Source of the DNA: Sistotremastrum niveocremeum HHB9708
Taxonomy: Eukaryota; Basidiomycota; Agaricomycetes; Sistotremastrales; Sistotremastraceae
Reading direction: 5' to 3'
Assembly: GCA_001630475.1 (NCBI GenBank)
Contig: KV419404.1
Coordinates: 106,225-170,224, forward strand
DNA length: 64,000 bases
The stretch's first letter is position 1. Every line of letters begins with the position of its first letter. Below are positions 47,447 through 54,120 of this stretch, one piece after another. Position numbers and translations under genes: made by a program. The notes beneath the pieces are model-generated. The model had not been told where the DNA came from and ran no database searches. It worked only from the letters and a program-made list of their open reading frames with translations.

Positions 47447-50284
47447 TCACCGAGATAATGCCCATGGTAGAGGAGTCGGTTGTGTATTTCCTTCTCGAAC
47501 CTAGAACTGGTGATGAGCGACGAGCGTCAGCATGACTACGTTTGTCTCACCTTGTGCATGAAGCTTGCAACACGACCCAGGTCTACCATTTGGGGCTCAC
47601 TATCCACGGCGATCACCAGTTGGCCAGTCATCTATGGAGTGTGTTCCAGCGAGGCGTAGAAATTTGAGACCGGAAATGTTTACCTTTTCGATATCATCAA
47701 CAGGCACACCAGTAGAAGCAGACAGAATCCTCTTGCACATCAACTCCTTCTCGGCACTCGCGCCATGCAAAGCTTCTATTCTCCCTTGCAGGAGCGCGTC
47801 CGCTCGTCGATGCCAGGTAAGAAGCCTCCTCAAACGGACAAGACTTTGTCTTGTGTTGCCAACGGTTATCGTGGGATCCGCATCCAGGTTAGGAGCGACA
47901 TCCAATACAACCGAATCTAGCATCGCGAGAGTCGAGGTCGGGCCGCGATTCACGAATGCAGGGCCTGCAGATTCAACAGTTGATGGCGTTCCATCCAGTT
48001 CAGTGCGCCCAGTCCAGTCAAAGGAATCTTCGGCTTCCATGCCACGTTCCAGGTTTCGGATCTTTTGTTGCACTTGATCAAGTTCGCTGCATTTTGCTTG
48101 CCATGAAGCGATTTGTCGACGTTGTTCGGCCAACTGACGGGTGGCAGCCTTTAGTTTGCCTTGGATGCCTTCCAGTGAATCAGTCTTTTTCTTGATCTCC
48201 ACGCTGTATTCGTCGCGCAACGATTCCACCATTGACGTGATATCTGACAGATACTAAGGATGGGCATCAATCGTGATGACCTCCGAATGGCTCACCATTG
48301 ATGACATCCTGACTCTTCTGTATCGGCAGCGAAACGCCGTCTCGAAGGCTCGATATATAATCAACAGTTCCAGGCGCAGTCAAGCTCTGTGTGAATAATC
48401 AAGTCATGCCACTGAAAAATGAATGACAAACTTACGTCTCCTTCAACACCGAAATCTCCAGGTCTGAGACCCAGTTTGTTCGGGAGGATTCGGTTGGCTC
48501 CGAAATCAATCAAAGTCCTAACAAGCTCCCGGTTTCCCACTCGCGCAGCAATGTTCAGCGCAGTATCGCCATGCTCGTCTTGTAGATCGATTACACTTTT
48601 GAAATCTCCATTCTCTCTTTGCGCAATCCACATCACCACGCAAGTCATATAGTATCGTGAGGCTGAAGCGCGTCCTTTGACACCAGCGACAAGTGCAATA
48701 TGGTGGAGGACTGTCCGTCGAGATCGGTCCAGAGTGCGGATACTCGCATGGAGATGCGCGAGAATAGTGTTGAAGTTCTGCGCGTTATAGCCGTCAAGAG
48801 AGAGCACGGTTCGGATAAGAGCCGTTTCTCCCGCGAAAGAGCCACGATTGACGTCTGCGCCGCGAGCGATCAGTGATTCCACCATCGGTACGTCCGCGAA
48901 CGCGGCGGCGAGATGTAGACTCGTGTGCCCTTGATCATCAACAACGAAATCATAGTTGGGTTCCCTCGCGATTTCCCCCGTGTGAGTTTCGGGGGACGTC
49001 AAGACTTGTAAAACGCGTTCTGAATCGTGTTTTGAGATGGCAGCAAGAAGTGCGTTGGCTTTAGTACTTCTCAGGAGAGCTTTCCTGTCAAAATTCCGCG
49101 AGACAGTAGGGGCATTCGAAAAACGTATGTTGGACTCTGCGAAAGACGATTTGTCTATGGTCCTGCCGTTCGTTTTTTTCCATGATTGTTTCTGGGCCAA
49201 TAGAGTGGCGCTGAGGGTAGGACTGAGATCACTGGGGGGCAGCAGTGCTGGCTCTTGTTCCGGTTCTGTAGTTCGTGGTCGCTTAGCAGGCGGGGCTGTA
49301 GGGGTGGATGTTGAAGTGGGGAGAGTAGAAGTGGAGGCGGGGTTTGAACCGTCAGCCATTTGGATGTCTTGTTGTCTGGTCGCCCCGTTCGATTCTTGGG
49401 GCGCGTCAGATTCAGTCCGGGTGCGTTTCAAAGATGAAGAAATAGGAACAGGTGAAGGAGTAGGAACAGAACGAGGGGAAGTAGTGGCACTAATTGGGGC
49501 AGCTAGTACAGGATAGGGTTGGGGGGTGGGTGGATTTGAGTTGTTCGGTGGCATCGTGGTCGACATAGAGGGCGTGAAGAGGCCCTGGGCCCTTCCTTGA
49601 TTCAAGAGCTTCAGAGCTGACCCAGGGACCATTGCCGGTGCTCCTACATGGGACGGCGTGACTGGAGGTCCGGGACTCAGAGTGAAAAATTGGCCAGCTC
49701 CAGGTCTTCCAGGTTGAAGACTATGGAAGGCTGGCATCCCGGGAGAAAGGATATTCATGGCCTGCGCAGGAATAAACTCAAATAGAGGTGCCAGCAGAGG
49801 GGCAACGCCATATTGTGCCGCTACATCACGACCTCTTTCCAAGGGAATCCTAGTGAAAGAAGACGCGTTTAAATGATATGTGGGCCAGACAAGTGCGCAA
49901 CTCAGGAGCTCACCAGGTTCCTTGGTACTTCCCATAACCTCCTTGCACGATTTCATGTTTCCCTGGTAAAATTTCCTTCTCGAGAATCTTGGTACGACGT
50001 CCCTTATCGATACCGGCGACTTTGAGTATCTGAGTCGCGTTCACGAAGGAGTCGACGCGACGACGCATCACAGCGATGCCTCGGACCATGCATTCATAGA
50101 CCTAGACGCGATTCAAGGAGAGAATATCAGAACGGTGTCATCAGAGGGGTGGTGTGATGTCGCGGTTGATGCTCACCTGAACGGATGAATAGACTGCATT
50201 ATAGATTTTCACTGATTGCTGTGGTGGAAACACCGGGATAGGTGCTTGAGGAGTTCGCTGTATGATAGGAGCGGCAGAGGCCAT
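47447..50284 (-). CDS. MBP1: APSES/ankyrin cell-cycle transcription factor, Mbp1 type
   Basis: DNA-binding subunit of MBF, the G1/S regulator. Exon 1 starts at 50,284 ([20 protein letters not shown]). The APSES/KilA-N DNA-binding domain follows: [70 protein letters not shown] Pro/Ser-rich linker leads to ankyrin repeats ([40 protein letters not shown]), then a coiled coil ([17 protein letters not shown]) and the C-terminal hetero-dimerisation region ([18 protein letters not shown]). The last exons are spliced past a weak gtaaac donor to give [20 protein letters not shown] and VREGNTQ, as in related proteins. It could equally be called a Swi4/Mbp1 homologue; basidiomycetes normally have one such gene plus Swi6. 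Confidence 0.92.
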
Positions 50285-51993: not shown

Positions 51994-52435
51994 ATGATAT
52001 CTTCTCGCCTTCTCGCTTTGACTTCTGCGACTCTCTACTTCTTTTCTACGATAGCTGCACCTATTCAGGTCTACCCAGAAGGTATGTCGGCTCATCCCGA
52101 ATCGTTTGTAATCTACTGACCTGTAATGAAAGATCCGGCTTCTGGAGATTACACTATGACGTTGTCATACCCGTCGCATATCACGCAAAGAGTGAGCATT
52201 TGAAATATCACGATCCGCTATTTGTGCTGACCATACAGGCACCTCAGGCACCGTGTGGCGGAGTTGGAGAGCCTTCATGCGACTCAATCCCAACCACCAC
52301 CCTGCTTTCTAGATTATCAATGGAAAAAGCATGTAGGTCCAATCGTCATTTTTCTTCTGCCGTTCCGCTCAGACTTCGTTGTCAGATGTCTCGACTCGTG
52401 GCTGTGGTGGCCCCGGAGAACCCTCATGCGACTAA
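51994..52435 (+). CDS. Predicted secreted prepropeptide with two Cys-containing repeats
   Basis: Proposed four-exon gene: 51,994-52,081; 52,133-52,191; 52,239-52,332; 52,386-52,435 (96 residues). Exon 1 encodes a signal peptide (MISSRLLALTSATLYFFSTI ending in AAP). Exon 2 is a short pro-region ending SHITQR, and exon 3 starts precisely after that Arg with APQAPCGGVGEPSCDSIP. Exon 4 repeats the motif as STRGCGGPGEPSCD then stops. All introns are GT-AG, 46-53 bp, and phases agree. The gene at 53,803 has the same plan, with exon 2 also 59 nt long. The layout suggests processing by a Kex2-like or related protease to release short Cys-bearing peptides. The family is not one I recognise; expression is unknown. 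Confidence 0.65.
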
Positions 52436-53802
52436 GTCGCGCATCAAAAATTAGCTCCTTCCGTTGCTCTTGGTACGTCGTGTTTTATTCCCCGACGTTT
52501 CGGAATCATTAAGTCGTGCGTCCAGGTAATCCGTCAAGTTATTCACATGCATGCCCACATCGCACTATTTATTAGTATTATGCTAGGCCGACTTTGCAAA
52601 GTGTAGACCGTGCTACACTGAGCGGGGAGCAGGTTCCTAGTCACCGTTATATTAAACTGTCTACTCTATAATGGATAGTCTTCGTCATAATGCAAGTTTG
52701 TACATGCAACACGCGACCTTTCAGAAGGCGACGGCAGTGACCGATTACTCTGCGAAAAGGAATTCGAACGCATCCACAACACTCCATGCCCCTGGTCTTG
52801 CTTTCAACATACCTCGTTTGGAACTTTGCACCGTCGAGGTCCGATAGGTGTTGTGTAAACTAGAAATTCAGCAACAGCTGATCGTGGTGCGATTTCAAAG
52901 ATGGAGCGGATAAAATGGGCGACTCATTTTCATCGAGCGCACCCCCTGTCAAGAAGGGAAATAGGGTCCTGGAATATTATTCTGGATTTTTCAAAGAATA
53001 GTCGCAGGCGCCCCCCAAAGAACAGGAGTCGAGCGGTTCGGCAAAGCCGCTTGTTCCTTCGGGGCGATACGGGGCGCCCAAGCGGCGGGGATTGAACTGG
53101 TTTGAGTCGTTGAAGCCTAAATCCTGAGGCCAGAGCGCAGTCTGGCAGCACTCGATGTCTGAGCTATTTCGATCGTGTGGCAGGCACATTACGCCATACA
53201 AGCCACTCCTGGTCGGCTGAATGAACGTCGGTGGTTTCACCGGTCACCGCTCTCGCTACGCTGGCCTTTGCTCTGCTGCTTATTGGATCTGTGGGAACTT
53301 GTCGAGTTTTAGACTTCTCGAGATCCAGATCAATTTCGAGTGCTTTATGCCAGATCAGTAGCAGCGCGCCAGAAGCAGGGTTGAAATGATAATGCGTCAG
53401 TATCCAGGATCTTGGTCAACTTAGGCCGCCCTGTCGAGTTACGGCGAAACGGTGTACCTGGCAACGCTACGGTCGATCCTTCCAGGGCAAGGCTCTGATG
53501 ACGTCCATGACTCGTGAAACCGGAGTCTGGCTTCATTTGGCCTACCCCTTCGCACTGCTTCCCACAACGAAAGGCCGTCTGTCTCCCTTCGTCCCCTCCG
53601 TATCTCCTTTTCAACGACGCAAGGCACGCGTTGAAGAACTCCCGTGCGTTCAGGACTCGGACGTGCTTGCTATATCCAAGTCTAGTCCCAAATGGCACAA
53701 GGCTATACGGGCCCGAAGAGTATTAAACCTCGTCGCCCGACCTCAAAAAATGTATCCAAAAAAAACCAACTCCCTTCTACTCATACTCTACTCCACAACG
53801 AG
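52436..53802. other. No gene recognised
   Basis: Intergenic between the two prepropeptide genes. GC-rich around 53,000-53,110. Longer open frames at 53,345-53,840 show no conserved feature. Confidence 0.5.
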
Positions 53803-54120
53803 ATGGTTTCTTTCAAGTCCGCTACTCTCATTTCAATGACCTTCTTGGTCGCCAGCAGTTTTGCGGCTCCCATACCATCAGAATGTAAGTTATTCAATGA
53901 CTCCCATTCTCGACCAAAAAACTCACACTCGAATAGCATCGGAGGGTTTGAACTCCTTGCCTCCATTGCTCAAGCTCCAAAATCTTGACAAGAGGGTCAG
54001 TTTGTTTTATTGATACAAGTCAATTTGCTGACCTTGTTCTAGGCGCCATGCGGTCAGGCTGGAGGGCCTTCTTGCGATGCCGTTCCTGGGCCCCACACCA
54101 CCATTCTCGCAAGACCTTGA
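53803..54120 (+). CDS. Predicted secreted prepropeptide, paralogue with Lys-Arg cleavage site
   Basis: Three exons: 53,803-53,884; 53,937-53,995; 54,043-54,120 (72 residues). Exon 1 is a signal peptide (MVSFKSATLISMTFLVASSF-AAPIPSE). Exon 2 (59 nt, the same length and phases as in the neighbour) encodes the pro-region SSEGLNSLPPLLKLQNLDKR. Exon 3 begins directly after the Lys-Arg and gives a 25-residue peptide starting APCGQAGGPSCDAVPG and ending ARP. Lys-Arg is the classical Kex2 site. The shared C-G-x(2)-G-x-P-S-C-D core and intron positions show it is paralogous to the gene 1.8 kb upstream on the same strand. Both Cys are retained, so a small disulphide loop is plausible. Not a CAAX pheromone. 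Confidence 0.7.

Follow-up and report, generated by a model that had tools for sequence, protein, structure and literature searches.

Two related precursor genes

Two genes on the forward strand lie between positions 51994 and 54120 of the window, that is, of the whole stretch of 64,000 nucleotides of Sistotremastrum niveocremeum DNA analysed here. These outer limits are the ATG of gene 1 and the final stop base of gene 2. Both genes are predicted to encode a signal peptide, a short pro-region and one or two peptide exons, and the core CGxxGxPSCD is common to both. Their features are listed below (G3 to G11 are further genes of the same genome, described in the next section).

51994-52081, + strand: gene 1 exon 1, predicted signal peptide (MISSRLLALTSATLYFFSTIAAPIQVYPE), from the gene model and its hydrophobic stretch
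52133-52191, + strand: gene 1 exon 2, 59-nt pro-region with C-terminal Gln-Arg, from the gene model
52239-52332, + strand: gene 1 exon 3, first peptide exon (APQAP-CGGVGEPSCD...), from the gene model
52254-52283, + strand: gene 1 first core, CGGVGEPSCD, the same 10-mer as in G6, G7 and G8, from motif scan and gene models
52386-52435, + strand: gene 1 exon 4, second peptide exon, ending ...GCGGPGEPSCD-stop, from motif scan and gene model
52403-52432, + strand: gene 1 second core, CGGPGEPSCD, the same 10-mer as in G10 and G11, from motif scan and gene models
53803-53884, + strand: gene 2 exon 1, predicted signal peptide (MVSFKSATLISMTFLVASSFAAPIPSE), from the gene model and its hydrophobic stretch
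53937-53995, + strand: gene 2 exon 2, 59-nt pro-region with C-terminal Lys-Arg, from the gene model
54043-54120, + strand: gene 2 exon 3, peptide exon AP-CGQAGGPSCD-AVPGPHTTILARP-stop, from the gene model
54049-54078, + strand: gene 2 core, CGQAGGPSCD, the same 10-mer as in G3, G4, G5 and G9, from motif scan and gene models

The predicted precursors comprise 96 aa (gene 1, 51994-52435) and 72 aa (gene 2, 53803-54120). Exon lengths are 88, 59, 94 and 50 nt in gene 1 and 82, 59 and 78 nt in gene 2. The second exon measures 59 nt in both, the first intron is in phase 1 and the second in phase 0, and the five predicted introns (47-53 nt) all follow the GT...AG rule. This agrees with an earlier note on this DNA, which had proposed two same-strand genes with a common exon plan and whose coordinates are exact; the 1.8 kb that it placed between them is the distance from start to start (1809 nt). 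Equally accurate was its description of a third exon that follows Gln-Arg in gene 1 and Lys-Arg in gene 2 and holds the motif, and of a second motif copy carried by the upstream gene on its own exon; this copy stands directly before the stop.

Two candidate acceptor AGs of gene 1 exon 3 stand 9 nt apart (52236-52247, the downstream AG ending at 52247), and their alternative use may let the exon begin with either APQAPCGG or APCGG. If the third intron were left in place, reading would shift to another frame and the second core would be lost. When all six frames of the window were scanned with a broader pattern, the three core copies and one unrelated match came out. Searches of Pfam (E <= 0.1) assigned no family to the proteins of gene 1 or gene 2, MF_alpha and MF_alpha_N included, Rfam had no match in the window, and the best hit among solved structures (E 0.12) was not meaningful.

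A family of precursor genes in the genome

Protein queries against the organism's own genome (34,710,156 bases, or 34.7 Mb, in 111 contigs) recovered nine further genes on five other contigs, for which models were built by hand. What had been described as a pair of paralogues is thus a family of at least 11 genes with at least 21 cores. Both numbers are lower bounds, since only the best candidates were scored and the last protein query still gave a new gene. The precursor genes are distributed over six contigs (C11, C21, C36, C53, C67 and C87), and their products range from 40 to 133 aa and their predicted introns from 47 to 72 nt. The members outside the window are the following.

C36:317118-316606: G3, four cores
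C36:338520-338003: G4, three cores
C36, locus about 337229-336857: G5, two peptide exons at 337054-336857, signal-exon frame broken
C36:336224-335885: G6, one core
C67:29605-29182: G7, one core
C53:66695-66573: G8, intronless, 40 aa, one core
C87:21593-22205: G9, four cores
C87:24588-25015: G10, one core
C21:26855-27139: G11, one core and a Cys-rich tail

Ten of the eleven models are complete, G5 being excluded. A hydrophobic N-terminal stretch is present in all ten, weakest in gene 1 (G5 was unscored, and the measure is not SignalP), and it is very probable from their sequences that the 11 genes are precursors of secreted small peptides. The idea of a small family of secreted Cys-loop peptides was sound as to the type of precursor and the two-Cys peptide as its conserved part, and too narrow in its size of two genes.

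Several features of individual members were also observed. G11 differs from the other modelled members in that its core (TPCGGPGEPSCD) is fused to a Cys-rich tail (WCMMDPDEMCCPGWCVTNPDAACCQD). The broken signal-exon frame of G5 would mean either that this gene is decaying or that the assembly is wrong there. G3, G4, G5 and G9 have in common spacers of the type VAQAPLVLEER, and the regions of G9 and G4 resemble each other (72.5% across 462 nt). Four members fall within 22 kb of one contig (C36:316.6-338.5 kb) and two share the 37-kb contig C87; this clustering may extend past the stretches examined. A weak match at C8:352464 (E 0.18) lacked the core and was dropped. A prokaryotic or viral origin was considered and rejected, since scans with an alignment gave 53 pattern matches in genome contigs and 67 in viral contigs, none of which was a confirmed relative. 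Among ten upstream regions, no 7-mer exceeded shuffled sequences as a shared promoter element; the 8-mer ATATAGCA occurred in four of the ten, a borderline figure that was attained in 3 of 40 shuffles as well.

Could such a motif recur by chance? Given the base composition of the window, 0.58 copies of the loose motif and 0.04 of the strict one would be expected in the whole genome, and the fetched loci held 21 and 15, respectively; the patterns were written after the copies were known, so that the expected figures are only indicative. No motif copy arose in 60 shuffles of the window, whose total of 3.8 Mb is too little sequence to weigh much, and a reversed precursor used as decoy gave no match, an empty result that is uninformative by itself. 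The nine further genes are a stronger argument than shuffles and decoy. Together with the synonymous divergence of the cores they led us to reject artefact or chance; the composition estimate and the reversed decoy argue more weakly in the same direction.

Exon plan and candidate cleavage sites

Each core generally opens its own exon: 19 of the 21 are the first of their exon and begin no more than 7 residues from its start, the exceptions being the fourth core of G3 and that of the intronless G8. Where a preceding exon was modelled, the intron before the core is in phase 0 in 17 of 18 cases; the phase 1 case is the second core of gene 1. Phase-0 peptide exons could be duplicated or skipped in frame, which would provide a simple route to a changed number of cores.

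For 20 of the 21 cores, the 7 residues before the core include a Lys or Arg, which is true of 124 of the 454 remaining positions in these proteins; the sole exception is the first core of G5, for which the model omits the exon before it. The basic site closest to the core is KR or RR in five cases, a single Arg in twelve, a single Lys in two and RK in one, with none modelled for the remaining core. The reading of Lys-Arg as a Kex2 site, made in the earlier note, is thus borne out for the presence of an upstream basic residue and does not extend to a dibasic site in most copies. Likewise, its claim that a basic residue comes immediately before the peptide exon applies to exon 3 of genes 1 and 2, and an intron directly follows Lys or Arg in 12 of the 21 copies and not in the others. 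The AG/GT splice consensus favours Arg codons at exon ends and may partly explain these junctions.

Pro or Ala directly precedes Cys1 in 17 of the 21 cores, and exact X-P/X-A dipeptides, the STE13 signature, span the gap to Cys1 in nine. On the C-terminal side, 6 of the 19 cores of the ten complete models end at Asp, five of them at a stop codon and one, in G3, at a Lys-Arg that follows the core directly. These five core-stop precursors and the core of G3 point to the Asp at position 10 as the likely C-terminus of the peptide. The other 13 of the 19 cores carry C-terminal tails. Those after the last cores of G4, G9 and G11 contain no Lys or Arg, so a free decapeptide is unproven and the product is possibly longer.

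Conservation of the core

Positions 1 (C), 2 (G) and 9 (C) are invariant among the 21 copies. Positions 5 (G), 8 (S) and 10 (D) are each conserved in 20 copies and position 7 (P) in 15. All 21 cores are distinct as DNA, and they encode eight peptide variants in the genome; CGQAGGPSCD recurs in five genes, CGGVGEPSCD in four and CGGPGEPSCD in three. Cores of the same peptide differ at about 6 synonymous changes per 30 nt, and over 193 between-gene core pairs, which are non-independent, pS is 0.84 and pN is 0.16. Pairwise comparison between the ten complete models gives a mean protein identity of 79% for the cores (155 pairs), against 24% for the first 25 residues, which cover the signal (45 pairs), and 26% for the pro-regions (36 pairs).

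The high identity of the cores, the low identity of signal and pro-region, and the recurrence of the same 10-mers despite differing DNA indicate that selection keeps the released peptide while the precursors drift. With synonymous sites near saturation, the family would be either old or fast-changing in its DNA, and constrained in its protein.

Candidate proteases, receptor matches and neighbouring genes

Matches to the P-domain of convertases were found at two loci of the genome and a DPPIV_N match at one; both domains also occur outside Kex2 and Ste13. The genome contains 25 STE3 stretches, which belong to several genes and are all located on contigs C13 and C35, and no precursor lies on either contig. 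The STE3 matches are grouped at 8-9, 25-29 and 75-76 kb of C35 and at 527 and 610-626 kb of C13. A genome search for STE2 (PF02116) gave no match, and neither did its controls, so that its absence is unproven. The many STE3 genes, the empty STE2 search and the short introns fit a basidiomycete. Class I receptors are described as restricted to Ascomycota (PMC13308352, a FEMS review), and the same review reports that several basidiomycetes possess non-mating STE3-like receptors of obscure function.

Three ORFs with recognisable domains are found near genes 1 and 2.

48361-50040, - strand: ankyrin-repeat ORF
54.9-56.4 kb, + strand: PRISE-type reductase
58.1-59.2 kb, + strand: TFIIS_M ORF

The C36 locus contains a kinase ORF and WD40 ORFs. 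None of 28 selected ORFs (8 + 10 + 10), drawn from the surroundings of the genes and from other parts of the window, matched a RiPP tailoring enzyme, in line with the earlier statement that no tailoring genes are adjacent, and none of the 28 matched DUF3328 (UstY).

A putative peptide signal and its alternatives

The members of this family, at least 11 genes, appear to release a near-identical ten-residue peptide with two Cys, which is perhaps a secreted signal similar to yeast and mould mating factors. In the mechanism that we propose, the signal peptide would direct each precursor into the secretory pathway, a Kex2-like protease would cut after the basic residue just before each core, and a Ste13-like dipeptidyl aminopeptidase would trim X-Pro or X-Ala in many copies. 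The product would be a peptide based on ten residues, of the type CGGVGEPSCD, with a Cys1-Cys9 disulphide loop. It would most likely be recognised extracellularly by a receptor of its own and convey a hormone- or pheromone-like signal that serves a purpose other than mating. We give a probability of about 0.6 to the product being a looped peptide built on this core that acts as a signal. Our preference for a non-mating peptide hormone presupposes splicing, secretion, cleavage, trimming, disulphide formation and signalling, each of which is predicted from sequence. A bolder version, which we offer tentatively and consider rather doubtful, is a disulphide-looped, alpha-factor-like hormone system that operates without STE2 in a basidiomycete. 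At least eleven genes would converge on a few letter-perfect decapeptides, perceived by an orphan receptor (e.g., a non-mating STE3-type or other 7TM protein), and duplications of phase-0 peptide exons would adjust the copy number. Such a system may share descent with the alpha-pheromones of ascomycetes and with the CGGRGTPC peptide of Trichosporon.

The same peptides would serve a different purpose if they were weapons or effectors secreted against competitors, grazers or a host instead of self-signals. Peptides of agaricomycete KEPs (Kex2-processed repeat proteins) have been suggested to act in the biotic environment, their knockouts being without phenotype in axenic culture (Vogt et al., PMC9769878). 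The presence of eight core variants in a single genome and the coupling of core and Cys-rich tail in G11 are also consistent with this role. Toxin families usually conserve the signal and vary the mature peptide. Here the pattern of an arms-race toxin is reversed, with cores 79% identical on average against signals at 24% and pro-regions at 26%, and the same cores recur at near-saturated synonymous sites; we thus regard weapons or effectors as unlikely.

The precursors might instead remain uncut, as small surface proteins in which the core serves a structural or metal-binding function. We consider this quite improbable: conservation in the rest of the precursor is poor, basic residues are enriched immediately upstream of the core, and the intronless G8 amounts to a signal plus one core and little else. 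The two Cys and the acidic end could nevertheless bind metal, precursors of 40-133 aa are short enough to act whole, 12 of the 21 candidate cut sites are a single Arg, and 13 of 19 cores have tails. Further modification is the subject of a last alternative, in which the peptides would be dikaritin-like RiPPs cyclised by UstY/DUF3328 enzymes. Secreted Kex2-type precursors with short cores are indeed the type of substrate used for dikaritins, and yet Tyr occurs in none of the 21 cores, the 28 selected ORFs include no DUF3328 match, and the precursor genes are scattered over six contigs, which makes this highly improbable.

Comparison with known systems

KEPs are the first group to which the putative peptide signals can be compared. 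Basidiomycete precursors with STE13 signatures have been reported (Le Marquer 2019, PMC6339444), and basidiomycete KEPs were also surveyed by Umemura 2020 (PMC7329392). Peptides of agaricomycete KEPs have been detected, either natively or from yeast expressing the precursors, some of them with Ste13-type trimming and some ending at a single Arg, and knocking out six other KEPs in Coprinopsis produced no phenotype (Vogt 2022, PMC9769878). The family described here resembles the KEPs of these three studies in its signal-type N-terminus and in short repeated cores after basic residues. It resembles those with a STE13 signature in the X-P/X-A dipeptides before nine of its 21 cores, with no tailoring enzyme seen nearby.

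There are also differences. The family has one to four cores, mostly after a single Arg, and most of them open their own phase-0 exon. The STE13-type cores of Vogt 2022 end in Trp (QYKAPSW), and the word cysteine is absent from the main text of that paper (PMC9769878), whereas the cores described here have two Cys. A KEP in the sense of Le Marquer (PMC6339444) has an N-terminal signal peptide by SignalP and, once the C-terminal fragment has been set aside, gives four or more fragments at KR/RR (or KK), of which three or more are similar repeats. Nine of our ten complete models yield two KR/RR fragments at most, short of that number, and combining KR, RR, KK and RK changes only G6, to two fragments. 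G3 yields four fragments, three of them with a core, and is borderline as that method sets the C-terminal one aside. This suggests that screens requiring at least three repeats at KR/RR would miss most members (9/10 models), and that split small genes of this kind need motif-based searches. The second route used by Vogt, in which repeats were chosen by eye, might have caught the genes with many cores. Five core strings had no occurrence in the literature searched, and we recognised no description of a basidiomycete KEP family with a Cys core among the matches listed; the supplementary tables of the KEP surveys could list a member.

The classical pheromones of basidiomycetes, CAAX lipopeptides perceived by STE3 receptors, are likewise products of a small multigene peptide family, and several STE3 genes are present in this genome. 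Unlike them, the precursors described here have a signal-type N-terminus and no canonical CAAX among the last four residues of the ten complete models (G11 ends in CCQD, with the Cys in place and without the aliphatics). Moreover, no precursor adjoins STE3, whose genes are on C13 and C35 while the precursors are on other contigs.

A resemblance is also found with the two-Cys alpha-type pheromones of ascomycetes and with the Trichosporon oleaginosus peptide QSWGGCGGRGTPCW (PMC6339444), all of which share with our cores two Cys and a short loop with Gly and Pro. The segment CGGRGTPC of the latter is the nearest published sequence that we met to CGGVGEPSC. Alpha-type pheromones also derive from a pre-pro precursor, and part of the copies described here have Kex2/Ste13-type starts. 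They differ in that genes 1 and 2 have no Pfam match and the genome no STE2 match, the controls of that search being empty as well. The Trichosporon peptide itself has six residues between its Cys and a Trp after the second one, compared to seven and an Asp here.

Basidiomycetes do not use alpha-type precursors for mating, and the function that these have there has been left open (PMC6339444, PMC9769878); the family provides a short, easily synthesised and strongly conserved candidate ligand. It would work like a KEP or an alpha-pheromone precursor, and on the tests made it should not be counted as a member of either group. Judging by these sequences, the closest known kind appears to be that of the Kex2-processed, alpha-pheromone-like precursors of basidiomycetes.
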